A stretch of DNA of 64,000 bases. It comes from Tubiluchus corallicola. Lineage: Eukaryota; Priapulida; Priapulimorpha; Priapulimorphida; Tubiluchidae. The translations under genes and the position numbers were made by a program. Under the pieces are notes generated by a model. The model saw only the letters and a list, made by a program, of their open reading frames with translations, searched no databases and was not told the DNA's origin. Below, one piece after another: positions 1,910 through 58,400 of the stretch (position 1 is the first letter of the stretch; each line of letters starts with the position of its first letter). Where the stretch lies: NCBI GenBank assembly GCA_030141605.1, contig JAQGDQ010000060.1, forward strand, positions 62,001 to 126,000. Reading direction: 5' to 3'.

Positions 1910-2816
1910 ATGGCATCTGGACGATTAGAAGTCAACCATCATGCTGCAACGACCTTACCAGATAATCAAGTGTTGCCTGGACAAGCATTTGGTCCAAATC
2001 ATTCAGACATACAGCCAGATGCTAATTCAGATGAGTTGCTAAATTCTGGTTCAGCATCAGAAAGTCTGCAAGAATCTGAGGCAAAGTGTACTGGCTCGTC
2101 AAGACGCAAACTAAAATGCCCTAGAAAGCTTATAACACGGTCTGCATTTTTGCGCGAACCGGAACAGTGCCAAATTAGCTCTAGCGAATCTCTGCAATCA
2201 TCTTATTTAGTGAGGAATATTCTAGATAATTATGAACAGTTGGAAATCGAGCCTGTCGGTGATAGTTTACAAAGCGATCAAGGATGTTCTGAAACGAATG
2301 GTAGAGATATTGATGCAGAGTTTGCCAATAGTATCAACACCGGTGAGATATCAATGGAGAATGAAACTGTTGTAAACTCTGATGATGAAGTGGTAATTCC
2401 AAAATATGAGCTCGGAAGGCGGTTCAACCTGCGAAAATCTTACAGCAGAGAAGAAAAGCTCCGGGCTATAGATTGGTATTTCCAAAATGGGCAGAACAAA
2501 TACAGGACATGCAAGCACTTCTCATTAAATACTCGCACACTTGGTAAGTGGATTGCTGCCGAGGAAAAGATTCGTCAAGGTGATACCACGCCTCACGATG
2601 AAGCTGAAGCTGCCGCTGCAGAACTGAAAAATCTTCACCAAGAGTTGTACAAGTTTTATAAGACAGAAATTGATCGACGAGAAGGCGACGAGTCGTGTTT
2701 AACGGACACGTGGTTGAAGGAAAAGTCGGAGACGCTGGCTCAGAAGCTATGTCCAGAACAGGATTTTCAGTTCAGTACGGATTGGTTAACAGAGTGGAGG
2801 CAGAGATACATAGAAG
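1910..2816 (+). CDS. Brinker/CENPB gene, coding exon 1 (module A)
   Basis: Codes residues 1-302 plus one base (phase 1), donor G|GTATTT at 2817. It holds an acidic, Ser-rich N-terminus, then BrkDBD A (about 174-222) and a CENPB-type HTH (about 240-302). Module A is the most divergent: it lacks the GRRPFW start of the second HTH that modules B and C share, and has an Ala/Glu-rich stretch in its place. Reading on past the donor hits TAA after two codons. Confidence 0.85.
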
Positions 2817-5800
2817 GTATTTAAAATTCTGTGTAAATCAGGCAGGTCACAAAAAATTGTTTCTGTCTTGCCTCATGAGCTCAAACAATGTCAGTAGAGA
2901 GACAGGAAATTTTTTTTTCAAACTTTGTGAATGTTTAAAGCTGAATGGTGGAATATTTGAAATCAGTTGAAAGCAAAGTTTGTTTATTTCCCACTGGTTA
3001 GCAGTAATGTTTTAAACACTTTCAATGCACGCTTTGTTTTTTAGTTTCGCATTACTAAATTGTCGTATAATTATCGATTATTGTATAGTCTCTTTTTTGT
3101 ATCATGAACACGCGTATGTATAAGCGGCAACACTACTCCGCCGTTAACAATTTGGCAAGAAATTTGGTACTTTTCAACCTCCAATACAATGAGCATCATA
3201 CAAAACGGCAACCCTGGCCGAGAGTTAGCCTTGGAAAAACATGGCCACGTCCTGCATTCCCCGAAAGAACGATGTTATAATAATTGTGTTTTACATTTTA
3301 AATTACAAAAATACGCTACAAAAAAATTGTAAAATTCCCAGCTGGGTGTACGATAAAAAAACAATCCGGGCGACTAGACAGAAACAGAAGTATTTTTATT
3401 GTCGATCTTAAAATGCAAATTATTTGTAAGGTGTAACTTTTATTTTCTGAGTGCAATAAAACTCTGTGAGCCAATGGAGGATTTTCAGAAAATTTCCATT
3501 TTTATTGATTCCTGCAAACTGACTAATTTGTTGCTTAAAGAAAACAGTTAATTCCTTCACTTTACTATATAACTGGCCATATTAAATTTATTGATTTTTT
3601 GGCCGACAATTGAGATTTTGGGTGTTTGTAGCGAGTATAGTGATGATGTAATTTTCAAACAATTACAGAGTGATTTTAAAGCAAAACCGCACCCGATCTT
3701 AAACTATAGGTAAAAACAGTCTTTGAAAAATATTGAAAGGAAACACTATTTTTTTCAAAAATGACTCAAGTGAAAGAACTATTGTCAGACAAACACATTT
3801 TCGCATTCGTGCGACTAGTTCTTTGCTGTTACATGCATTTTGCCATTTACTAGTTAGACGGACATTAGCACCATTGTATAAAAAACTGGTGCTGTACCTT
3901 TCAGTTCAGATGTGTTAGTTTGTGACGAACTACACATGTTCCACAGCTCATGTGTGAGCATAGCGGTAAATTTGAAATTTGAATTTTTGTCTTAAAACTT
4001 TTAGTACAACACACTGAATATCTTACAGTAGCACCGTACTTCAACTTTCGCTTTCGCATACACGTGCAACACGATCATGGAAATTTTTTGTTGGTGAAAA
4101 TTATGTTGGTTTTTGATGTCATCAATAGTTGGACTCACCTACCATTAATTAAGTTTTTAATCTATTATTTAATTATTAGAAACGCTTTTGCAGTATTGAT
4201 TGTGTTAAAATGTATACTTTTTATCGTACTTGAAAATGGTGTAGTATATGAAAAATCATCCTGTCTTCCTTTCATGATACGCAATCATATAGTTGAACAT
4301 CCAAGCTAATTATCATAATGTTACTAATTAGATGTTATTATGACTGTGAATGCCAGAATATAATAACCATCATCATCATAATATGTAGGAACTTTCACAA
4401 CTTCAAAGTCTGTTAACATTTTTTTTACCTTTTAGATGCAAAAGGCTTGGACCAGCAGCAAGCAATGTCGCCCGAACCGCCAGTCGAGCTAAAAATCCCT
4501 TCTGTTCCGTACTCCGGCTTCCGTAAACGGGGCCGCCCCAGAAAGAGCGACATGCAGCTCTTTGGATGTGAGACAGACGATCCTACGGTCAGCCACTGCA
4601 GCATACCGAGTGCTTTCGCCAGTCTTGATGAAGATAACGAGCTACGCCGCGAAGCCGAGAAGCTGGAAAAGGCTCTCTTTGGCCACGAAAAGAAGCTGAT
4701 AACTGAGTTCATGAAAGAATATCCCAACATTCCATCTTCTCATTCGGGAAGTCGACCATCAAGTCTGCATTCCAGCTTTCCAAATTCTAATTTTCCATTT
4801 GACCTATCATCGCTCTGGACAGAAAGTCTAAAATTTTCCGGTCGTAATGGTTTCTTGGGTGCGCCTGCGCTGACCGATCACCGTATCGAGCGACTTCTTC
4901 CAACTTCTAATTCGGGCAAGACGCCTCCATTGTCAAATGCTTCCTTATTGGCCAGTCTTAATCAATTTGTTCCTCCTGATACATCTCTGACTCAACCACA
5001 AATGTCTACCAGCTTAAAAACGTCTGATACACCTGCTTCAGACATTGATGGAGCATCTAAAACTGATGTTGGGTACGACGACATTCCGGCTAGGTACAGT
5101 ATCGGTCGAAGTCGCAACCATCGCAAATCATATACGAGGGAGGAAAAGTTGCGTGTTTTAGATTGGTACTATACGCACGGTGAGAATAAATATCGAACTT
5201 GTAAGGTTTTCAATTTGAACACTCGCATGCTTGGAAAATGGGTGAAAGCCGAAGGGAAAATACGCAGCAGTCGTCATGGCGCTATGAAGGTAACATCTAT
5301 TTTTTTGTTATTTCCTACTGAGGTATTTCGTAAATAGATAATGTTATGCAGTTATGCGGTGGGGTTCGTAGCCAGATCGTCTTGCGAAAATGGTAGCATC
5401 CTCAGAGCCATAGCCTTGAATCTTATGTTGAATATATTATGTTAAAATTGATACTTTTTATCGTACTTGAAAATGGTGTAATATATGAAATACGTGTATA
5501 TATATATATATGTATACATACTACATACATACGTACGTACGTACGTATGTACGTGTATCCAGAAACTGCCAGAATTAATTATAAGATTTATAATCTTACC
5601 TGTTTAGCTCCTACATCAAACTTCAGAAAGTCTTCACTGAAATTTTTTCATTAGTGCACTAATTTATAAAGTGTTCTGTTTGCCCGCCTCTTGTCTTCAT
5701 ATCTCATTCCGTTGGTTAGAGAAATTGTGTAACACATTTGCCTTCAGTGATACGTGCTTTTGTGCAGATTACTTACTGTTTCGTAGATTTATCATCCATA

Positions 5801-8800
5801 ACTACAGACATGATGTTTCGTGGATGATAATTTAGCTTTTATTTATTTTCTAATTTTCTTAATTTCTGAAGTGGTCTCCCACTTTTTTGTTATTATATTT
5901 CCAAGAACTTATTGTAACTTCTGTTGGTTTGTTATGCTACTTTACTGGCAAAATACCACAACATTTAGCTGCTGTAACGATACACCTAACTCAAGATAAG
6001 ATGCACGTCACAATACAGTTAGCGTTTGCAGGTTTTATGTAAAAACTAGATGAAGCCATTGATAATAAATGCTAAACATATTTTATCAATCAATACTTTT
6101 AGGATTTTTAACCGCCAAAATTACTCGATAAACTGTTTGATTTTATTTACTTGTGTAATGTGTAGGATATTGTTTCCATTGTAAGCCACCGGAAAAGCAA
6201 AACATTTCAATACTTTAAGTTTAAAAGTTGCTTGTGTTCTGAATTACATTTGCCATTTCACAAGTTTATATGTAAACAATGTAATTAACCTACTACACAT
6301 TAATTACCTTGCCGTTTCAACCACATTGGCTGCTAGCTTTGTCTGTGTTAAGTCAACTACTGCTCACTGCATGAATTGACAGGTATCTACAGTAAATTCT
6401 ACAGCTGCGGTTTGAATTACTTCAAATTGTTTTTATCAGCATAAGATGAAGCGTGTGCTAATTTGCTAAATATCATTGACTCAGGTTATCACAATACGGG
6501 TGCACTTTGGCGATATGCATATTGTAATGAAAGCTATCGTGATAAGCTATCAAAAGCTATACATGGGTGTATCGTTACAAGCCTATTAACATTATTGCGT
6601 GATTACGCTTAATACTTATAGTTTAATTCTCAGCTGCACTATGTATGTGAATAAGACTCAACTAAGTTTCAATTGAATCAGCACTTAACAACTGAACAAA
6701 TTTTAGGTTGGTAGCGGCAGGCGTCCATTTTGGCGTGACATGGAAGACGAGTTATACAGAATGTACCTGGCAAAAGTTGAAGAAGTTGGCCACGAGAGGG
6801 CAGTACCGCAAGCTTGGTTTCGCACAAAATCCGAAGAACTCATGCAACATTTACATCCCGAAGCGCAGTTCAAGTTTTCATACAACTGGCTGGAGGGATT
6901 CAAAACTCGCTATATAAGTAGGTGTAAATCTTTCGTTTTTTGGCTTTTTGATTTCAGTGGTGCGATTGCAAACCAAAACCGTCCACAAGTCGGCATAGTT
7001 AAAATTACGTGATGATGCGTCCAAGTAGAATACACCAAAAATTTTCTCAAATGTCGATTTTTCATGTTTTATAAAAATCAACGCTAAATATATTAGACTT
7101 CTATATTCTAGCATCAAATTATCAAGTTATTATCACAATTTATTTTATAACTCTTTACTTACTTTTCTGTCTAGAAACTAGTACTGCAATTGTAAAATTT
7201 TGTATTTTCAAACTTAGATAGTAGCTTGTGGAAGCAGTAGTTTTGCTTCGAGTTTTTTCTGGTGACAAGACCAGATCTTCATCAGGAAGATCCATCTACT
7301 GGATTTAAACATAACTTCCGTATGCTCTTATAAAGTCAATAGCAACCGCACTTTCATACGGTTACTAAGAATTTTGTAGAAACGCGACAAAAAACAATGG
7401 CTGACTTTTGAAATTTTCTCAGGACTGTTGTGTTTTTCACTGCATAACCTGCACCTCAACTTTAACGTGGATTATCTCGGCTTAGAAATAACATAGAGCG
7501 ATGAGCTTGGTATCAAAATGATCCTCATGAGATGGAGATTCAGGACATGTGAATAACTAGAAAAGCTTAATTGCCGACTTATAGAAGATTTTGCTGTGCA
7601 AGCACACAGTGTGCATTATCAATTGAACAAAAGCCTTTTTGTGAAGCAAATTTGAAACAGTAGTTATCAAGTTCGGGACAATAGTGCGTACAGACTTTAG
7701 ATTTTTACTTGATTTACAGTAGGCGCTGCTTAATAGACTCACTTTGGGACCGAAGTGTTTTGACCCAATTAACCGAATGAGCCTATTAACCGATGGGTGT
7801 AGTATTACTGGTATAGAAGTATGAGTCACCAGCTTACTAAGTGAATTAGCAATAAATTAAAAAGTATACTTTTTTGAATCACACAAGTCTGTTTATTTGC
7901 AAAAATTACAAAAATTCATTTAAAGTCGGCTGCTTCATTTTATCGTGAAGAAGTTCGCCCACAAAATTCTTAAAATGACAAAAACGTTGAAAATCTGTTT
8001 TTATGTGAAGCACAAATTCTCGTAAAATACTCAGTGCCTGGCGTGCTTAAACTATTGGTGGTGCCTGTGTTTCCCCGCAACTTCGTCTGTAATTTCGACT
8101 AAGTTCCTGCTTGCTGTAATTGTGACGTACTTACTGTATTGTACCTGCATCCCTGGCATAAACAGCAACATCTAACTGATTAAACTTTCTGGCAAAGACT
8201 ACCAGAGCTTCAAAAGCAAACCGCTGAACAAGTGATTAAATGTTTAGCTTCCAGGAATTCTTGGGTAACGAGGTTAATTGCAGTGGACCAGCGAGTCAAA
8301 GCAAACCATTAGGCTAGCATAATTAGGGTATGCTAAACGTTCCTGCTTACAAATAAAATGGTACTTAACATGATTGTTTCTATGTATATTATAGGACAAA
8401 AGCGAACTAAGATGATATAAAAATCGTAAAAGTTTATAAGTCACACGAAGTGTCTCATTGAAGCATGTGAAGGAAAAATATTGAGTCAATTATGCGGAAT
8501 TATTTGAGTCAATTACCGATAGCTTTTATGTATATTTGAATAGAAGCGGCCCGTTTCAGGCGTTTTTCAGTCAATTAAATGATGGATTCTATTAACCGTG
8601 AAGCTATTAAGCGGCACCTACTGTATAAATATATGTATAAACTATTACTTCATAAATGTAAATGCAATTCTTGTTCACTTTACTTGTAATTGATATACTT
8701 TGTGTTTATATATTGCAGAGAGAGCCATTGATCTTCTCCCAGACCCCCTACCCGCCGAGACGGAGGTTGGCTCCACCACATTGACCACGAGTGCCAGTAG

Positions 8801-9800
8801 CAGCTCCTCTTCTGCCAGCGAAGCTTTCACTAATCTGCCCCACGCCGCCACTCCGCAATCACCACAATCTTCTCACAGCAATTCATGCTCTCCGGCACCG
8901 CCAGACTGCAGCACCAGCGCACCGGGGACAGCTAGCACAGGTAGCCAAGCCAACCAGACTACAGGTAACAATATTAATCTGCCAACATTCCCTGGAGGTA
9001 TATTTAATTTTCCGGGTTTTGGTGGGTTTAACTCGCATTTCAACACGCTTTCCATGCTAATGTTAGCTAGCCAGTTAGGAGCAGTAAATTACGGGGCCAA
9101 TTTGAATGCACCAGGCCAAGTTTCAATGACCGGAATGCCGTCGTCGTCGTTTCCTCCGCCGTCTCTTGCTTTATTACCCGGCGTTGGCAATTTGGCAACA
9201 CCAGCCGGATCTGACAATCATGGAAATCAGTTTGGCTCAGATCAATTCAGTGCCAGGGCTTCCACTTCTAAAAGCTTACCAGTAAACTTGCCGCTTCCAG
9301 CGTCACTGAATGGGAGCGATGCACGCACAAACGACCAAACATCTGAGCCTGAAGGTAGCGGAACAGATGATGCACACATGGAGCAATTTGATGTCGGACA
9401 GCAGAAAGTTCATCGTAAATCGTACACTCGCGAAGAAAAGATCCAAGTTCTTGATTGGTTCCACAATAATGGCAGAAACAAGTACAAAACTAGTAAAATG
9501 TTCACAATGAATATCCGCACGCTGGCGAAATGGATAAGAGCAGAGGACAAGATCCGGCGGAGTCGCCAAGGCTCCATGAAATCCGGAAGTGGTCGTCGCC
9601 CGTTTTGGGCCGATATGGAGAACGAGTTACTGCGTGAGTATCGCAAGGAGGGCCAGCGCAGAGGGGGTGCTAAAAATATTCCACAAAACTGGTTTGAGAA
9701 GCGATCGGAGGAACTAATGAAACAAATGCACCCAGACCAGCAGTTTATATTCTCTGCACAGTGGTTAGAGCGTTTCAAGAAACGACATGCTTTGCCATGA
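1910..9800 (+). CDS. Triple-module Brinker/CENPB-type DNA-binding protein (4 coding exons, 1017 aa)
   Basis: Joining 1910-2816, 4436-5289, 6707-6917 and 8719-9800 gives 3054 nt, in frame from ATG to TGA. The protein has three repeats of one module: a Brinker-type homeodomain-like HTH (BrkDBD; RKSY[ST]REEK...NKY[RK]T...KW..AE.KIR) at residues about 174-222, 531-581 and 890-941, each followed by a CENPB/Tc5-type HTH (about 240-302, 588-657, 948-1015). Between modules lie Ser/Pro/Asn-rich linkers, and an AT-hook (KRGRPRK) at about 333-339. This is the N-terminal architecture of pogo/Tigger transposases and of vertebrate POGK, but no DDE catalytic domain follows: the protein stops right after the third module. 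By hand count module A and B BrkDBDs match at 35/48 positions, B and C at 30/48. A nuclear, sequence-specific DNA-binding role is inferred from the domains; target and pathway are unknown. The start is the first ATG after the acceptor at 1877. Confidence 0.85.
3690..4180 (+). repeat. Repeat family D, copy 1 (intronic)
   Basis: Similar over about 400-500 bp, in the same orientation, to 51730-52235. Shared blocks include GACATTAGCACC-like sequence at 3860, a TTTGAAATTTGAATTT block and CAGTAGCACCGTAC. It lies in intron 1 of the Brinker/CENPB gene; copy 2 lies in the NCOA6 5' intron. No TIR or coding sequence was seen. Confidence 0.6.
4436..5289 (+). CDS. Brinker/CENPB gene, coding exon 2 (AT-hook and BrkDBD B)
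   Basis: Acceptor TTTTAG ends at 4435; the split codon G|AT gives Asp303. It carries the AT-hook KRGRPRK (bases 4525-4545), a charged probably helical stretch (DEDNELRREAEKLEKALFG), a Ser-rich linker and BrkDBD B (residues about 531-581). Donor AAG|GTAACA at 5290, phase 0, splits module B between its two HTHs; modules A and C have no intron there. Confidence 0.85.
5500..5562. repeat. Microsatellite (TA/TACG/TATG)n
   Basis: Alternating purine-pyrimidine tract with TATATA, then TACATA, then repeated GTAC blocks, in intron 2 of the Brinker/CENPB gene. Confidence 0.8.
6707..6917 (+). CDS. Brinker/CENPB gene, coding exon 3 (CENPB-type HTH of module B)
   Basis: Acceptor TTTTAG ends at 6706. Codes GSGRRPFWRDMEDEL and onward to FKTRYI, a CENPB/Tc5-type HTH closely like the one in exon 4. 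The chosen donor, A|GTAGGT at 6918, leaves one base (phase 1), which agrees with exon 4 and with the end of module A. A competing donor, G|GTGTAA at 6922, leaves two bases and would break the frame. Confidence 0.8.
6958..7607. mobile_element. Repeat family A, copy 1 (non-autonomous DNA transposon)
   Basis: Ends are inverted: 5' TTGCAAACCAAAACCGTC...AAGTCGGCA, 3' TTGCCGACTTATAGAAGATTTTG...GCAAGCACAC. The body shares the ATCTACTGGATTTAAACATA block with copies at 19.1, 20.7 and 41.6 kb. About 650 bp, no coding capacity. The superfamily is not assigned. Confidence 0.7.
7717..8623. mobile_element. Pogo/Tigger-like MITE
   Basis: TA target duplications at 7715-7716 and 8624-8625 flank TIRs CAGTAGGCGCTGCTTAATAG and CTATTAAGCGGCACCTACTG. 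About 0.9 kb, with no intact transposase frame. Confidence 0.8.
8719..9800 (+). CDS. Brinker/CENPB gene, coding exon 4 (module C, stop)
   Basis: Acceptor TTGCAG ends at 8718; the split codon A|AG gives Lys658. A low-complexity Ser/Pro/Thr/Gly/Asn-rich linker of about 230 residues precedes module C, which is intronless here (BrkDBD about 890-941, CENPB-type HTH about 948-1015), then TGA at 9798-9800. Confidence 0.85.
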
Positions 9801-11136
9801 CCTGTTGTAAAAATATAGTTAACCTTGATTTTATAATAGTCGGTAAGTTATGTTGTTGGTTCAGTGTCGATCAACATTGTGACGTAGATCGACTAGGCTT
9901 CGTAACTAGAAAAAAGAGAAAGTTTTTATTGTTTGTCATAATTCAGTTGCCAAATTGCTACATTGATATTTTTAGTGTCTAGAAGCGTGGAACATTGATT
10001 ATCCAAGCTCAAACATCCCGAAAACTCCTGCCTAAAGGGCAAGCGCAAATGGTTTACATTATCTGCCATAAAGCTGGGCTGTTGATCAAAAGCCATAGTA
10101 CACTTTATGTGCAACAAACGTAATCTATGTACAAAGGTAGTTCTCTATGGTTTAAGTCTTGCCAGTTTTTTTTTTTTTTTGGTTTGAATAATCTTGTTTC
10201 CACTACACCAGAGTTTGAGCTTCAAATGCAAAATGAGCCAGACAGTCTGGCAGTCTACTTCATGAGCAAAACATTTGTTATATGGCACCTAGTGCAAGTA
10301 ATGTGGTATTGTCCCACTAAAAAGCTTAATAAAGCCAGAAACCAAGCAGCCATGCTTAAAACTGCACAGATTTTTCTATGTTTACCAGTCTTTCCATAGA
10401 AGTAACATATATTATAATTACGTCTGTGTTACTGCAATATTTTACAATGTGTATGCCTGTGACTCTGTGTATGTGTCGTATTAATGTTAGTCAGAACTTT
10501 TATATAGCCAACGTAAGCGCACATAATGTATAGAATCATGCATAATAATGTACAAAATACTCTTTGGTAATTATCGTTGTAACTAACGATGCCGTTTGTT
10601 TAACTGCAGCTGTTTTTGGATAGTGCAATTATTTCGGTCCGGTTTTTGCGTATAGATGTAATCTTTTTTCTAAACATTTGTTTATTTTTATTGGAGATAA
10701 AATCTCTCTACATTCGTGTTGTACGATAGAACATACAAGTATATGCATTATATAATGTATTATAAGCGATATGCAACGCTGTGCTATCAACCATATTTTA
10801 CACTTCCTCACACATCTCATGTCTCTAATGGTGCCTAACATGATCTTCCATTTGATTTGAGGTTGCAAACAACTGTATTATTACACATTTATTTATTGAT
10901 TTTTCTGTTGTGGCTCATTCCTATCACATTCATATTGCCGTTGATAGCATCTGAATATCGTATAATAGGTCATGCGAACCTAATAACAAGACTGTTTTGA
11001 ACAACTAACACTCGGAAGATATAAAACCTAAACATTTTTTTATGATAGGAAAAGAATTCTGCTTGTGTGATCATGTAAAGGTTTTGCCATAAATGATTTT
11101 TTGAAAACTTTCACAGAACTGGCCTAGTTATTGCTA
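9801..11136. other. 3' flank of the Brinker/CENPB gene
   Basis: Presumably holds the 3' UTR; an AATAAA hexamer lies at about 10329, but the cleavage site cannot be chosen. A T-run lies at about 10168. No further coding sequence was recognised. Confidence 0.4.
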
Positions 11137-11701
11137 CAGTCAACCTCGGATTTAAGGTGACCGCGGACCAGAAAAAACCGTCCTTTATATCCGATGTCCC
11201 TTATAGCTGAAGTTGAGTTAGACCGAGGATGTATCTAGACCTGTACTTTTGCCCATATTTTTATGGGTTATTCCTACACATTCTGTGCAGATGGTATGTA
11301 GGAAGCTCCTTCAGTGATGCGAGATGTACGTGACGGCGGAAACCGAGCTGTTCGAAGGCCGAGTTTGCGAAAAATTGAGGTTAAAAATCAATCAATTTCG
11401 CTTTGATCATAGGGTTATATGCGAGGTAATTTACCTGGGTTTCTATTACGCGGGACCTGAAGATATCGTCCCTTATAACTAAAAGTCCTTTATATCCAAG
11501 TAGTTCATATACGAAGATTTTTATAAGGAAAAACATTACAAAAAATCCGGACTGGTGTTGGTGGTCCCATATAACCGAAAGTCTCTTATATCCGAGTACC
11601 TTACATAAACGAAGATTTTTACATAGGAAAAACGTTACGAAAAATCGGGACCGGTGTCGGTGGTCCCTTATAAGCGAGTACCTTATACCCGAGGTTGACT
11701 G
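11137..11701. mobile_element. Pogo/Tigger-like MITE, 'TATAAGG' family, copy 1
   Basis: TA-flanked, with TIRs CAGTCAACCTCGGATTTAAG and TTATACCCGAGGTTGACTG. Internally it repeats CCTTATA/GGTCCCTTATA phrases. Related copies lie at 24593 and 30832. Confidence 0.85.
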
Positions 11702-13596
11702 TATTTACTGTAGCACTTCATTGCTGTTGACGTGTCTGTTACCATTATAACTTTGGTCTAGTGAAAAATGGTAAAGGGAAAACTTCACAAGCAGTTGCAC
11801 ATGACTTTTTTGGACGGAACTTTTGTAGTTTTAGTTAAAGAATACAAAATGGTAAAACCAGAGTCAGAAACCAGAAACAAAAACATAGCTGACCATCTCT
11901 GTACTTTTCTCAGCCTTTCGCTTTAATTTTCCTATTGTGGAAACTTTAAAAACGTATTTCGTTTGAGGTTAGTGTTTAACTTGAGGAAATAACACTCTGT
12001 CAACTTCTAGTATGACCAGATGCCTGTAGCTCCCGATTGATGTATTTTATTTTACTGTAAACATTCCTAATGCATATGACAACATTTTGTAATCGCTAAC
12101 TAATACTGAAGAAAGCACTGAATTCCTCGATTAATTTGCATTAAAAGAAATGCAAAAAAACATTTAGTAGCTTAGGAAAACATTGTTAGTTTAACAATGC
12201 AAAATGCCTTCAGAACACATTGTTCTTCTAGTGTTAGATTAGAAGCTTTTGCTTTTCACAACAAAGCTAGTTTCCGTGCAATAGGCGTACAGCGCGCAGG
12301 CCGCATTGCGTCTCGTTTTGACCAGTTTACTTTTGTGATAAAGAATAATGAATGTAACGTCACGTTTTTTTTATTTTGATATAACTTTTATTATTTGCAT
12401 CTGCTGTAACATATTGGTGCTTTGGTTTATTATTATATATACATTACGCTAGTAAAAAATTTATCTGCTTAGCATCAAATGCGCATTATACATCATGTAT
12501 TTTACAGTTATTTGTTTGTACGTATAGTATACAATACGTGTATTAAAATAATAATTATGCATATTATGATTAAATGTTGTTATTAAACTTTGTAGGCAAA
12601 GTACAAAATGTATTATTATGCAAAAGTGTTTTCCATACCCCGAGTACGATTTTGGATATCTTATTGTGATTTGTTTAGCTAATGCATGTTTCCTATGCAC
12701 ATCCGCTGAAGCATATCCAAAGGTGATTCCATACGCACATCTGCTGAAGCATATCCAAAGGTGATTCCATACCAACCCGTTCTTTCAGAATTTTTCTTTT
12801 CGTAAATTGCCATTTTATAACGTTATTCTGATGTCGTCGATGATTATTTCATTCAAAAAAGTTATTTCATCACTAGGGTTCTACCTGGGGCCTGTTCCTG
12901 GGAAGTTTTTGAATTTGTTCATTTTCGAATCACCGTAGGTGCAAATTTCAAATTTTACAACACGATGAATGACCTTAAAATAATAGTTATCTTGTGTAGT
13001 TGTTTTGTGCTGATGCCTAATATTTGCCATTCATACTTGAATCTCATTATAACGTTGGAATCTTTTAATCTAAATGACCTTTATGCAGTTGTATCTTCCA
13101 AAACGATTCATATAAAACAGAATTGTTTTACATTGTGTATAATCCATACTTGTTTTAGTTCACTCTTTTTTATTATTTATACTATTCTGTTGTTTATTTT
13201 TAGTTAGTCCTATGCACAAATAAAATTATGTTAGCCATTTGTTATTTAGTTTACCATTGGCCTGAGTGATAATGAATGTACATGTAATAGCACACACTGT
13301 TTTAATTCCTACACGCAAAGTGTAATAATGTACTAAGTTGTTAACTACAGGTATGAAAGTTTATAATACGGCTTAAGATCTGTATCGAGAATTTGTTTAA
13401 TAACTGAATGTGTTAATTTTATCCTATATTTAATTTTTTATTTTACTTTGTAAGTCTTAGGTTGTGCAGCTCATATCTGTGACTGTTATTAATGTGTATG
13501 TTTATGAGTTAAAAGTGTGTACAAAACTGTATGGAATGTGACAATTTCACATCTATTTTGAACGTAAAGGGGCCCATACACAAATAGGGTTTAGAT
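11702..13596. other. Intergenic, no gene recognised
   Basis: AT-rich; short ORFs at 12197, 12461 and 12965 have no recognisable similarity. Holds one short tandem duplication at 12697-12772. Confidence 0.4.
12697..12772. repeat. 38-bp tandem duplication
   Basis: Two head-to-tail units (12697-12734, 12735-12772) that differ at one position by eye; the unit begins GCACATC and ends GATTCCATAC. Confidence 0.85.
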
Positions 13597-22891: not shown

Positions 22892-25800
22892 TCCCTCTCT
22901 CCCTCCCTGTTCTCCCTGTACTTCTTTCACACAGATATTTTATATGATGTATAACCAAAGATATGTTTAATCACAAATTTCAAAAAGAATGTACACGATT
23001 CATTTCCCAGAATATAATACAATCTTTTATTTACAACTAATAAAGTTATTTCTCTTGCTACAATTACACGGTTATCTGTCACGTTTATGCAAGATAAGAC
23101 TGTGCAAAGTTAGCAAATGTGATCAAAAATTGCTGTAAAATAAAACTTAATTCTACTACTATGAAAGTTTTGATTTGGAAGTTTTAAAGAGGTTAATAAC
23201 CAAGAATGAGCTGGTAGTTTACATACAGCTACAGAGGTTTACCAAGTTTGTATTTCCGAGCCAGATATCGCAGAATGGTGTTTGTCTGAGTTAGTTTCAG
23301 TTCACCATCGATAAGATAAGGCAACTACAAAAAACATCACTTGTAAACTAGCTATACGTCTATAACCACAGAACCATAGAACAATGAAGAATACAGGGCG
23401 TCTCAAAAGTTATCACACACTTTGTAACTATTTTCTTTTTAAATAATTTTTCTCCCATCCCAGCAAGTTCTTACAAGAATCGAAAAGGGCCTTCGACATT
23501 TCTTTATGTTTATTTTTCACTGGAACCGTGTTGCTATGGTGACAAAGTTGTTAGACATGCAACGTTAGAAATGCAAAATCAGCCAGGCATGAGGTCCCTC
23601 AATTGCGAATTGAAGTTCACATGTGAACCACGTTACTCTGTCATTATTAGCAATGTAGTTTTTTGCAAGGTGCAGCCCATCTTTACCATTCATGGGCTGA
23701 GGAACTTTCTCGATACAAGATGTACGACTTGTCATTGGACTGGACTGTGAAGCTCTTGAGGTCCCGGAAGAAAGCGGCAAAAATAGCAAAACCTCCTGGT
23801 GTGGTAGTTTTTTTAAGATATTCTAAAATTACTAATTTAATTTAGCTAAAATAATAAAATAACAAGATTTTAGTTAATCTGCACCAAATTCAAACATTTT
23901 GCTTTGTTTGTTAGAAAAATATAGAAAGTGTAAACTGCATAGTGACTTTTGAGACACCCTGTATATATTAAGCTGTGCCCACACCAAGTGTATTTGTGTG
24001 GCTGAGTATCTATTATGGCACCCATAAAAACACGTTTATCTTTGTGCAAAAAAACACGCACATAACAACAAAACTGCTTATTGCACAGAGACCCATACAC
24101 AAGTGGGCGACTGCTCACTGCACAGAGTCCCACATATGAATGGGCGATTGCTACTGCACAGAGTCCCAAACACAAGTGGGCGACTGCTCACTGCACAGAG
24201 TCCCACATACGAATGGGCGATTGCTAATGCACATTATGTAGTCAAGTTAATAAAAAGATTTCAGGTTATCAATCACAACCACGTTTTTTTTTGCTAAAAT
24301 TATGCTAAAATTCCTGTTTAATTTCCTATACAATTTTCCTACTTCTAATTCAAGTAGGTATAGGTTATAGTTATAGGATTTTGCGGACAGATGTTTCTTA
24401 TTTGATTATGACAAAACGGTTAGACGTTTTTCGTTGTAACAAGAGTTGGATATAAGAGAAAAAATTTTGCAAAACGAAAATCTCCATGAAGACAAATATG
24501 CTTGGTGAATGCACAGCATTAATCTGCACTATGTTAGTTACAGAAGATTAAATGCTAAAAATATTTAACAAAGAGATATAAAAATAAAATTACAGTCAAC
24601 CTCGGGTATAAGGTACTCGCTTATAAAGGACCACAAATACTGGTCCCGATTTTTCGTAACGTTTTTCCTATGTAAAAATCTTCGTATATAAGGTACTCGG
24701 ATATAAGGGACTTTCGGTTATAAGGGATGATATCTTCAGGTTCCGCGTAATAAAAACCCAGGTAAATTAAATCGCATATAAGGGACCCTATGATTAAAGC
24801 GAAATTGATCGATTTTTAACCTCAATTTTTCGCAAACTCGGCCTTAGAACAGCTCGGTTTCCGTGGTCACATACATCTCGCATCACTGAAGGCGCTTCCT
24901 ACATACAGTTTGCACTGAATGTGTAGCAATAATCCATAAAAATATGGGTGAAAGTACAGAAAAGTGCAGGTCTAGATGCACCCTCGGTCTGACTGAACTT
25001 CGGCTATTAGGGACATCGGATATAACGGACGATTTTTCCGGTCCCAAGGTGTCTCTTATATCTGAGGTCGACTGTATGACAAAGGAAGGTTTTCACCCAA
25101 AAATTATGAGCAAACCAAGTCTGATAAATGTTAAAGAACAGTAGTTTTAGAATCTAGTTGTCAGAATAATGCTGCAACTAAAGTGCTTTAATAATACGTA
25201 CATTTGGAAAATCCAGACCCAATGTGAACTTCTCATTCATCCAATGGCTGCGATCAAAATTTGGAGCTGAAAAATTAGATTTAAAACGATCGAATCACCA
25301 TCGTCAACAAATTATTGTCACTTTTACACAGTTAATACTACTTGAAAGTATTCACAATGACAAATACGCATATGCTGTCTATCACTACAATTATCCTAAT
25401 GTGCATTTTCTAAATGCCATACAAGCTTTAACTTTAAAGGAAGGTTTGGGTGAACCTTACAATGCAACCCAACAGAAGATTTGTCAACTGTACACCACTA
25501 GTTCCGAGTATATTAGTCGACATAAGCAAGTTCACGATGCAAGTTAATGCAACCCAACAGAAGATTTGCCAGCTGTTGTCATACTGTACACCGATAGTTC
25601 CGAGTACATCAGTCGACATAAGCAAGTTTACGATGCAAGTTAATGCAACCCAACTCATTTCCAGCAAGTTTCTTATATTCTACTCGCGGCGTACAGTATT
25701 CACCCAGTTTCATTCAATTGCAGCAACCCGAGTAGTGTCGCGGCTTGCGCGAACTTGTATGGCATTATCAGCTCCCTCTTTCAATTCTCAAGTGTTTTGA

Positions 25801-30831: not shown

Positions 30832-31043
30832 CAGTCAACCTCGGATATAAGGGACACCTCAAGGTTTCTATTAGCGGGACCTGAAGATATCGTCCCTTAT
30901 AACAGAAAGTCCCTTATATCCGAGTACCTTATACACGAAGATTTTTAAATAAGAAAAACGTTACGAAAAATCGGGATCGATGTTGGTGGTCCTTATAAGC
31001 GAGTGTCCCTCATAAGCGAGTACCTTATACTCGTGGTTGACTG
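30832..31043. mobile_element. Pogo/Tigger-like MITE, 'TATAAGG' family, copy 3 (short)
   Basis: TA-flanked; TIRs CAGTCAACCTCGGATATAAG and TTATACTCGTGGTTGACTG. Only 212 bp: an internally deleted relative of the 480-565 bp copies. Confidence 0.85.
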
Positions 31044-52476: not shown

Positions 52477-55400
52477 GTAAGACAAACTAACCAATCTCAG
52501 TTCAGAGATCTATCATCTCCTGTTGGTTTTATAATTTCGTGTGAAGGAATTGAAATATTTCTCAGCTTTCACTCGGACTAACAATGAGACTTTTGATTTG
52601 CCGGATCGAACGGAGTTTACTGCTTACGTTCACTCGTAGCTCTTACGCAGTTCAACTGACCATGTTCATTAATTAACGTAGAACTTTTGTAGTTAAAATA
52701 AGCTAAACTCAGCGTAGAAAAGCTTTGTTAATCCGTGGCAAGAAAACTTCAAAATTAGTGATCATATTAAGTACTTCAAATTTCTTGCAGTAACAATAAC
52801 CTACAGTAGATGCGACAACACTCGCATCTGCAGAAGTGCAATATTGAAAAAGACTTGCCACCTGTGCACGTCATAGCCTGTTACATGGCTTCATTCAACG
52901 TTGCTAATTCAGTGTAGCGTTTAATAATTTTTATATTATTGTTACTTTTGTTTGGCTCTGCCTAGAGCATCCTGTGATTTTTTTATTCATACATTTGGTC
53001 CAGTTCAACTTGATTTTACAAACAAAGGACTGACTTGATTCAGCATATTAGAAGTTGTGCCTCGTTAGCACTTGTAAGTGCTCGTGCTTATGTTATAAAG
53101 TTAAACTGCCGTGAACGTTTTTACCGCATCTCAGTCTTTCTGTGTACGAGTTTTGCACATATCTAAGAGCAAGAGGTAACTCGTATGCAAGTTATTTCTA
53201 GACCCATGCAGTGCTTGTAAAAATGACAAAGAGTGTAATTATGTGTGGACTAAGGATGAGCATTCTGTACCAGAAAGCAAATTCGAATCGAATCGAATTT
53301 GTTACTTTCGAATTCGAATTGAGTTTGAAAGATTTTCGAACAAAGATCGTGCATATTACTTGATTTTGTTCCACAGCGAAAAACGCTATTACTTTGTTAA
53401 AAATTTTGTGCAGTAACTGTAGCTATTTTCATGCTGTTTCAAACATTTTAATGATAAAGAAAGTGTGTGGCTGAAGTGCTGAATTATTCTAATCTATAAT
53501 TTTAGGCTCGAATCGAATTCGAACGTTCGTACTCGAACGTGGACTGAGCTTGTGTACGCATCGTACAAGATATTAGATGAAAATCTTTGTCCCAGTTTCC
53601 ATGTTTAGTTTCCATTTTTCCTGAATAAAAATCTAATTAGAATATAACAGAATTAATTATTATAATCTTAATGTCATAATATTGTTATTCATGGTACAAA
53701 CTCACAATTGATTAAATTTTAATACCAACTGAAAGTCGGGAAATGCAAAAAAAGCTGAATACTGCCTGGATTTGAACCAGGTCATTTTTCGCATTTCGTG
53801 GTTTTCAATTTAGTTGATGGAGGTTGTGTCATCGAGAAATAATAGAATTTGGAGATAAAAACAAACAGTGCAAGTATATGATTGCTAAACATTTACAAAA
53901 GTGTGTTTATGGCATTATAAAGCATAAACACTAAGTAAACACTACGCAGTTGCAGGTAATTTTTTTTGTATGTCGAACAAGTGCACCTTGACATTGGTCA
54001 AGAAATTTTTATTCTTATATTAGTCTTGTTATTATTAAAAATTTGGACAAATGTCGGTGTATTTGTACTTTTAAATGACAGTTATGATTGTAAAAAATTG
54101 TTTGACTGCCTTCCATGGCTATCGTTCTTCTTCCACCATCTTAATGTACAAATATACCATGTCATTAACTAATTTTTTCAATTTTTATTACTAAAATAAA
54201 ACTCGTGCAGAATACTCTAATGGTTGTGTATTTTCAGGTGTTTTTCGCGTGGTCAAAGTGGAACCGTGGAATAGCGTCCGCGTAACGTTCAGCATCCCAC
54301 GCGATGCTGCACAACGATTAAAAAATCTAGCTCAGCACACCGACGGCGTGCTGCGAGAACTGGGCATTCTGTCCGTACAAGTCGACGAGGAGAATGTGAT
54401 TTTGTTGAAAATTGCTGGGACCAACAACGAAGCGCATGAGATCGTTTTGAAAACAAACGATAACATTGCCTCGTCCACACCGAGTGCAGCGTCTAACGAA
54501 TCGGGTGCGAGCGATGCGGACGTGCAGAAAAACGTGACACAACTTACGAGTGTTCAAAACCAGATTGATACAAATATGACTGTTTTCAATCAAATTGCGA
54601 GCGGTGACGTTAACCACCTGTTTCGTTCGCCTAATGTGGTGGCACCGAATAGTGATCCGCTTCCGTTCCAGCAACCCCGAGTAGTGGGAGCTCGGCGGCC
54701 TGCCAACACCTATCCCAGTATGCAACAGACACAGTCCATTAGTTCTAGTCACTTGCCATCGTCGCCTGTCATGATGTCAGTACCAGTGATGCATCCGCAG
54801 CAGAGGCTCCATTCTTCGTCCAATCAGGTTTATGCAAATTCCCAGTCAGTGGGATACGTCCCGCAGACGAGCATCAGTGTCAGTAGTGTGGCGCGCATGG
54901 TAGCCAGTAGCGAGGTGGCGCTGTCAAGCCCGCTGCTCGTGAACTTGCTTCAAAGTGGTGGCAGCACAGCTGCTGATGCTCAAACCCGCATGTTGAGTCC
55001 TCCACTTGCGGACGGTCCCGTCAAAAAGAAGCGTAAACCTCGACGGTCGAAAGAGAAACACGAGGATATACCGAAGTCTGTTTCACCTATTGCTGCTGTG
55101 GAAGAGCCACTTCCTCCTGGCATGCGGCACATAATCAATCCGCTAACTGGACACTTGGAGCCTGTGGCAAATGAAGATTCCGAGTCGAGCCCCGGTGCAG
55201 TCGACCGTTTGGAGAATTCTCACGAGCTCCCTGTTATGTCCCCTCAACTTCGCACACTTTCGGATGATGTAGATCCGGACAAAACAGATACTGATCAAGC
55301 GGAGGAGTCAAATGAGTCTCCGCCAGTGTTGGAAAAACAGTATAAAGTTAGTGAGAGTTTAGAGACATTAAAACCCTCTGTAAAAGTAAAAACGATAGTG

Positions 55401-58400
55401 TCACCGTCAGAATCGCCACCTCGTCCGCCGACTGTGTTAAAAATTACATCTACAAGAGATAACTTGGGGAACACCACGTTTATGGTAAAAGCTCGTTCGC
55501 GCGATGTCAAATCAAAGGAGGAGAAAGTGTTAAAGAGGGCGGAATCGTGCAAGGATGAGCCAAAATTGCCACCAATCCGTATCAAGGTTCCCAAGTCGAG
55601 TATAGCGGGATTGGATTCGTCCTTGGTTACGAACAGTCCGGGAAGAAAGCGGTCATCGAAGGAACGATCACACAGCTTGAGTGTTGAACGAACATCAGCT
55701 GATGTAATGAGGCCGAAGGACTCATTGTTAACATCTGATGAGCATGGTACGTTGTTTCTGTTTTAACAAAATTTACATTAAACTAACATGGGTTTAAAAT
55801 CTATAGCATTGTTTGTAATACTGATTCCCCTACAGCTGTGCATGGACAAGGAAACTATAGGTTAACACGCACTAGATCACTTTGCTTGACCTTGGTCATA
55901 TCTAATGAGTTCAAAGAACTAATTCGACACTTTTTTGTTGCTTCAGTTGTACAATATTTTTGTGTAATACCCGTGATGACATTTAGCCTCATTAATGATA
56001 CGTAATATGAGAAACCATTTAGAGATTTTTTTCATAGCTCCTACAGCTTCTAAAACTCTCTACTTTGGGCTGTTTGCCTGCAATGACACAAACATGTTTT
56101 AGACCTATAGGTGGAATTAATTAATTTACAAATATAAACGCTTCCGTTTCCGTCAAATTGCCTTCGTAATTTTTTGACCCAGTAATTTTATCGTATTTTG
56201 TGCGTTCATATACTTACCTGGTGCAGCCATATAAAAGCGTGTTTTTTAATTTAAAACATAAAACGCAATAATTATTATAATATCATTGTTTTGACGAGGG
56301 TGCAGCCAAAACAGAGTGTTTTTCTACAGCTAACTCTCGGGCCAGGCCAGGGTTGTCTTTTTGTATGATTCTGATTATCATATTGGAGGCTGAAATTATT
56401 ATATTTTCAGCTAACTTATCGTATTAGCTACCGAGCAGTATAGCCGTTTATAACGTAATTATCAGAACATGTGATAATTTAAGACTTCATACTGTATAAA
56501 AAGGGAACTAAATGATAATCCATAATTATGCAATAATTTAGTAATGCCAAAACAAAAAACTAAAAACAAATTTTGATTTCAACTGGATTTAAATAGTCCA
56601 GGATTCAGCTTTAAACATTTGCAAAGCTTTAAGAAAAAAATATTTTCCTCATTTGGAGGCATATTTTGAGCTCAAGAGGTAAGGCAGAAACAAAAAACTT
56701 TTTTACCCGGTCCGGGCTCTGTCACAGTATTTTACATTTCGCGTTAAGTTTAATTCCGAAAATTGAATAAATGACTGGTGTTTTGCACCTTTTAAACTAC
56801 CATTCATTCTGTGTTCAAACAAGTCTAAAACGTTAATAATATCAGATGGGCTGAAGCCTTTCTTCCTGAACGTTATATTCTTGGTGCATTTACAAAACAA
56901 AAAAGCCAGAAGCAGAAAAGCAACATCTAACATCAAAAATTTTTTGTATAAACTGTATTTCTGTATTTTTAATACTCGCAACATGCGTGGAAACTTCGAA
57001 GAACACTCTGCAATATTTTCACTCCAGTATTCATGTTACATACACTTAAGAAGCCAGTGTTTATAAGAGTTTATTAATACAATATGTTTAACAATAAAAT
57101 TAAGAAATTGGCCGTAATTTGGTCTTCAACAAATACTGTACTGTAATTATTATTTCTTCAAGACTGCAAAAATTCTGTCTTCTATTATTAAGTACCTAAA
57201 GAAAGCAGTTTGCACGTTAGGTCATTTTTAATTTACCACACATTTACTTTACAGGTAAACAGAATTTTTGAGGGTAGGTAGTAAATGACCATGTTACGCT
57301 CCATTAAAGTTTCAGTACTATTCCTCACATACAGTACAATACTGAAATGCCACAATTTTTTATTTTCTTTTCGTATATCGAACATGTATGTGTGTTTACA
57401 GTTATGTGTTATAGTTACATGTTAACTATAGTTACGATGTTAACATGTATGTTACTATGTTACCATGTTAACTATAGTTACATGTTATAGTAACATGTTA
57501 CAGTTACACCTTATATATGTAATTAATGACTGTTTTTAATGACTTTGCTCTTAAAGGAAGACCAGACGATTGTTTAGACTCAATCTCATTTTAATTTACT
57601 GTCCAAGATATACATTTTCTTGCCTATAAAAGTTAACAATTGTTCCTTATATTTGAATAATTAGCTTAGAAAGTTAATTAACGGCAACCAAACACGGCTG
57701 TTGCTTACGTCAGAACCTAACCACTGTTTGTGCAATGGCAGGCGTCCTCCCTTGCGCATCAAGCACATTTGCATAAGCGTTACAGTACTGTTTAAACGCA
57801 TGATGTCACGAAAAATGGGCTTTACATCATATGACGTCAGAAACTAACACTGCAGTTCATGATCATGCTTATCACGGTACCGCCTTTTATTTATCGGCCA
57901 TGCAAATGTGACAGATAGGCGCCGCTCCCAATCTTAGTAGATTCACTGAGCTGCGAAAGTTTAATGAAATTTGACTATCCGAGGTACTTATTATTTAATC
58001 TTAGCCTTGATTTAAAAAAAGGCTATTGTAGTTTTCAATATTTTAGAGCATTCTTTATTCTGAACTCGTGTTTACACAATCATCCGGTTTTCCTTTAAAA
58101 TAGCGCACTACTTTTTTTATTTTACTAGATAAGTTGAATTCATAGTTTTCGGTTAATTAGCAGTCGTTCATAATTTTGAGCTTGACTTTTTAATGGCAAA
58201 ACAATTTGCACCTGGTAACCTTGACGGCTAGCGCGTCAGAAGCAAAGCTTTTCCTAAAATATGCGACATGAATATGCAACTATGCACCCTGAAACACTCG
58301 TGAAATGCTTGGGGGTTTATACACATTAATAATTCATGTATTTAGACTGAAATTAAATTAGGTTTGTTATGCGTTAAGTCCTAGAAGATGCATATTTTAC

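Follow-up and report, generated by a model that had tools for sequence, protein, structure and literature searches.

Entire pogo transposases are well known to have given rise to host genes. The locus described here raises the question of whether the DNA-binding region of such a transposase can also be kept without its catalytic domain and repeated within a single gene. It lies at positions 1910-9800 of a 64,000-nucleotide stretch of the Tubiluchus corallicola genome (contig JAQGDQ010000060.1, positions 62,001 to 126,000), which we refer to as the window.

Gene model and the three two-HTH modules

Our gene model comprises four coding exons, joined in frame across GT-AG introns to encode a protein of 1017 amino acids (Table 1). 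The exon open reading frames run for 306-368 codons without a stop, lengths whose chance probability, given how often stops occur in the introns, is about 1e-9 to 1e-11, and exons show a GC content of 43-50% versus 33-35% for introns. Splicing of exon 2 to exon 3 unites the two halves of module 2 without a gap, as in the unspliced module 3 (AMK-VGSGRRPFW versus SMK-SGSGRRPFW). The joins between exons 1 and 2 and between exons 3 and 4 were drawn from frame, phase and splice-site score only: the first intron (2817/4434) and the third (6918/8717) are both in phase 1, and the latter combines the top-scoring donor and acceptor among the possible junctions. From these sequence features, we infer that exons 1-4 form one transcript. 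The first-pass annotation had likewise proposed a single 1017-aa frame of four exons with three module repeats, a proposal borne out by the in-frame joins and by module-to-module similarity of 98-165 bits, far beyond chance; pairwise identity among the modules is 38-57%.

Table 1. Coding exons, two-HTH modules and AT-hook-like motif of the gene model, in window coordinates
Feature	Position	Strand	Content	Remarks
Exon 1, coding	1910..2816	+	Acidic N-terminus and module 1	Phase-1 donor following base 2816
Module 1	2423..2815	+	HTH_Tnp_1/psq-like HTH and Tc5-type HTH, aa 172-302	
Exon 2, coding	4436..5289	+	Linker 1-2 and first HTH of module 2	
AT-hook-like motif	4533..4553 (approximate)	+	KRGRPRK, aa 333-339	10 bits versus Pfam cut-off of 17.4
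Module 2, first HTH	5113..5289	+	aa 529-587	
Exon 3, coding	6707..6917	+	Second, Tc5-type HTH of module 2, aa 588-657	Junction backed by homology to module 3
Exon 4, coding	8719..9800	+	Ser/Pro/Ala/Gly-rich linker 2-3 and module 3	Stop codon 9798-9800
Module 3	9402..9797	+	BrkDBD-like HTH and Tc5-type HTH, aa 886-1017	

Each module comprises a first HTH of ~55 aa followed by a second, Tc5/CENPB-type HTH of ~70 aa. Only module 2 (aa 529-657 overall) is interrupted by an intron, which separates its two HTHs. Profile searches detected HTH_Tnp_Tc5 (PF03221) in modules 1, 2 and 3 at 27.9, 22.2 and 23.4 bits, respectively, at or above the Pfam cut-off of 22.2 in each case. The BrkDBD profile (PF09607) reached 21.6 bits in module 2 and 16.9 bits in module 3 when these were scored alone, both below the cut-off of 23.4, and 25.4 bits when summed over the whole protein; the first HTH of module 1 was matched not by BrkDBD, but by HTH_Tnp_1 at 30.2 bits. 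Since no single copy reaches the BrkDBD cut-off and copy 1 is matched by HTH_Tnp_1 instead, the earlier description of three Brinker plus CENPB modules stands for the CENPB-type half, while its “Brinker” half is better termed a Brinker/psq-like HTH. The protein thus contains a Passer-type combination of BrkDBD-like and HTH_Tnp_Tc5 regions, with Tc5 detected per module and BrkDBD only in sum. We found no KRAB domain in the protein, which does not match a POGK-like layout of KRAB, one module and DDE.

The modules are separated by disordered-looking linkers of about 226 and 228 aa with a high content of Ser, Pro, Ala and Gly, and the protein’s N-terminus is acidic. An AT-hook had also been proposed; its KRGRPRK core is present, but with a score well short of the Pfam threshold. 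A PFDLS stretch (aa 423-427) fits the CtBP-binding motif PxDLS, but shuffling the protein sequence yields such a motif in 2.4% of cases, so that a role in CtBP binding is only a lead.

Two further features were recorded around the gene. Within the window, positions 54195-55766 hold a long exon of a homologue of NCOA6 (nuclear receptor coactivator 6; NCOA6_TRADD-N, 87 bits), which marks the genome as that of an animal; searches for COX1 and GFP gave no match, the GFP result being uninformative. Contig C1821 also bears a long trinucleotide microsatellite array (L018, 3931-4431), open in several frames, some 4 kb upstream of the window.

Predicted folds and the divergence of module 1

An AlphaFold model of module 3, built from four sequences with a mean pLDDT of 74, shows six helices patterned as two HTH domains, and the models of modules 3 and 1 each contain two HTH-like helical units. 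The top Foldseek match to module 3 is CENP-B bound to the CENP-B box (1hlv; probability 0.99, E 0.012); next come Tc3, with its bipartite domain, and the paired domain of Pax6. Comparison of module 3 with 1hlv by VIA gave a Z score of 7.8 over 114 residues with a whole-chain rmsd of 14 Å, indicating that the two halves agree while their mutual orientation differs. A sequence search of the PDB returned the Brinker domain (2glo) as the best match, with an E value of 0.02.

The three modules differ in the character of their second halves, which carry net charges of -8, +1 and +6 in modules 1, 2 and 3, respectively. Module 1 carries TTPHDEAEAAAAELKN in place of the basic GSGRRPFW stretch of modules 2 and 3, and in its structural model this TTPHDEAEAAAAELKN stretch merges into helix 4, now 29 residues long. 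Because the second HTH of copy 1 is acidic, the modules are not equivalent, and the first-pass view of three repeats of the same module needs correcting in this detail: in copy 1, the second HTH has diverged and the basic linker has been lost. Sequence and model together suggest that module 1 reads DNA differently from modules 2 and 3, and copy 1 may perhaps be no third equal reader.

Origin of the modules and alternative readings

We searched for DDE_1 and found no match in the protein or anywhere on the 756-kb contig C1821, compared with 97 places elsewhere in the genome, although a weak match is possible; the proposed lack of a transposase domain is supported by this result. No convincing pair of terminal inverted repeats with a TA duplication brackets positions 1910-9800. 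When modules 1 and 2 were each used to query the whole genome, the searches returned the locus itself only, the next best match being a Tigger-like element with an E value of 0.016. No relatives were found in prokaryote genomes or viral contigs, as expected for an animal gene. Between modules, synonymous divergence is saturated (pS 0.86-1.02) and nonsynonymous divergence is lower (pN 0.28-0.44), values that compare paralogous modules rather than orthologues and so are not a measure of present-day constraint. With synonymous sites saturated and the protein kept, the modules are old, and all three have been under selection.

The locus combines traits of a domesticated regulator: a single copy, purifying selection (between modules) and no mobility features. 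It is most likely a single-copy host gene and no transposon now. A decaying or non-autonomous copy of a pogo-type transposon would explain the pogo-type DNA-binding domains in a genome with many pogo-type elements, but we regard this as extremely improbable for a single locus that has introns, long open frames and selection on all three modules, and that no terminal repeats bracket. A more serious alternative is that the model joins what are really two or three adjacent one-module genes (exon 1; exons 2-3; exon 4) that arose by tandem gene duplication. When exon 1 is extended into intron 1, the result is a complete module-1-only reading frame that reaches a stop at once; exon 2 contains an in-frame ATG 29 bases past its start; and every module ends at or near the end of an exon. 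Exon 4, however, has no in-frame ATG in its first 335 bases, although this stretch is GC-rich and open, and the donors and acceptors unite the exons in a single frame. On balance, we consider separate neighboring genes unlikely.

The relationships among the modules bear on whether they arose by duplication within the gene or whether related pogo elements were captured three times independently. In a maximum-likelihood tree of 15 rows, all pogo-type DNA-binding regions from one genome, the modules group together in a single clade (99/98), which recurs in 98% of bootstrap trees; the other sampled pogo-type DNA-binding regions of the genome score at most 23 bits against them. This close grouping, far from all other sampled elements, makes separate captures very unlikely, even though the modules are old and divergent, their linkers appear dissimilar by eye, only module 2 contains an internal intron, and the donor family may be extinct. 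A larger split (94/90, drawn open) places the modules with L022 and with L024, L028 and L043. The last three have a first HTH that is Brinker-like by sequence, and in L024, which was scanned, BrkDBD and Tc5 score 38.5 and 58.3 bits, respectively. These affinities fit a putative Passer-like source for the modules; in this single-genome tree, even the closest element lies far from them.

Overall, the explanation we favor as likely is that a pogo (“Passer”-like) DNA-binding region was domesticated long ago, was amplified within the gene and acts as a multivalent DNA-binding regulator. The first-pass annotation had suggested a captured pogo-type DNA-binding region expanded in one gene, and the pogo-type domains, the CENP-B fold match, the single clade, the saturated pS and the absence of a DDE match on the contig all agree with it. 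Against the favored explanation weigh the large rmsd to 1hlv with a Z score below 8, the BrkDBD scores below cut-off in each copy and the lost basic linker of module 1. The coding region would descend from the two-part DNA-binding region at the N-terminus of a pogo-superfamily transposase, and this unit would have been duplicated twice within the gene, with the catalytic DDE domain absent. The duplicated unit was plausibly a cassette of linker and module between phase-1 introns. Exons 2 and 3 together span 1065 bases, equivalent to one linker and one module, and are phase-symmetrical (1-1), so that their duplication could leave the frame intact.

Several repeats lie in or near the gene. A 69-bp interspersed repeat occurs at 4185-4253 in intron 1 and at 5422-5490 in intron 2, the two copies being 86% identical, and more than 800 places across the genome are candidates for further copies; we considered it as a trace of exon duplication and rejected it because its candidate genomic copies number in the hundreds. 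Outside the gene, a 569-bp element at 11135-11703 with TA-CAGTCAACCTCGG inverted repeat ends (24 nt, 92% complementary) looks like a non-autonomous pogo/Tigger-type element. Genome-wide, candidate matches to the end of this element number in the hundreds, and the 40 that were scored are at 86-100%; within the window, the CAGTCAACCTCGG end has six matches versus 0.42 expected. Inverted CAGTCAACCTCGG pairs at 24593-25074 (0 mismatches) and 30832-31043 (2 mismatches) are probably further copies of the same family.

Predicted function and comparison with known systems

By homology with CENP-B, the intact modules 2 and 3 would each bind a two-part site some 15-20 bp long, and the long linkers would allow one protein to engage two or three spaced or separate sites. 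Module 1, whose first HTH is normal but whose second is acidic, would probably recognize a shorter site or use its second half for protein contacts. Two, perhaps three, modules, together with the linkers, the AT-hook-like motif and the acidic N-terminus, fit a nuclear protein acting at multiple sites. With no enzymatic domain, transcription regulation or chromatin bridging is likelier than DNA cutting, and from sequence and homology we infer DNA binding and a role as a multivalent regulator or chromatin-bridging protein. A more specific version, in which three composite modules sit on flexible linkers, one of them has switched to protein contact, and the protein loops DNA or bridges chromatin in a multivalent manner, perhaps where pogo-type elements spread through the genome have left sites behind, seems to us distinctly unlikely. 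If the gene was domesticated as we read it, transposase DNA-binding regions can serve as repeat units in the manner of zinc fingers and psq motifs, and multivalent DNA reading can be tested directly on modules 2 and 3, assayed singly and together.

Pipsqueak carries four tandem psq motifs. Transcription factors of CENPB and HTH-psq type that derive from transposons are found across Metazoa and are mostly lineage-specific (PMC10027918). Because such factors and Pipsqueak are known, tandem transposase-like HTHs without a DDE domain are not new in principle. Our search of the open-access literature found no description of three composite two-HTH modules with long linkers, which is weak evidence of novelty. 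Drosophila Pipsqueak, Dan and other psq proteins resemble the present gene in using a transposase-related HTH in host regulators, but their unit is a single ~50-aa HTH, whereas the gene here repeats HTH pairs with ~230-aa linkers.

Among pogo relatives, Passer transposases combine BrkDBD, HTH_Tnp_Tc5 and DDE_1, POGK combines BrkDBD and HTH_Tnp_Tc5, and vertebrate host genes derived from pogo retain the DDE domain (PMC7386202). The gene shares with Passer two HTHs in the same order, and the Brinker-like L024, L028 and L043 fall on the modules’ side of the tree; unlike Passer, it has three modules, introns and a single copy, with no DDE match on the contig and no bracketing terminal repeats. POGK and POGZ are likewise pogo-derived host genes with a Tc5 HTH, accompanied by BrkDBD in POGK, but both retain the DDE domain and carry a single DNA-binding region alongside KRAB or zinc fingers (PMC7386202). 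CENP-B (1hlv), the top fold match of module 3, similarly joins two HTH domains by a linker, but has one module, a dimerization domain and a decayed DDE domain (PMC7386202).

The same genome encodes another pogo-type DNA-binding protein with tandem HTHs, in a 336-aa ORF on the minus strand of contig C2279 (L022, 931-1941). It resembles the present gene in combining a Brinker-like HTH with two Tc5 HTHs in an ORF without a DDE match. In that protein, however, the second HTH alone is repeated, and its similarity to the modules described here is at most 23 bits.
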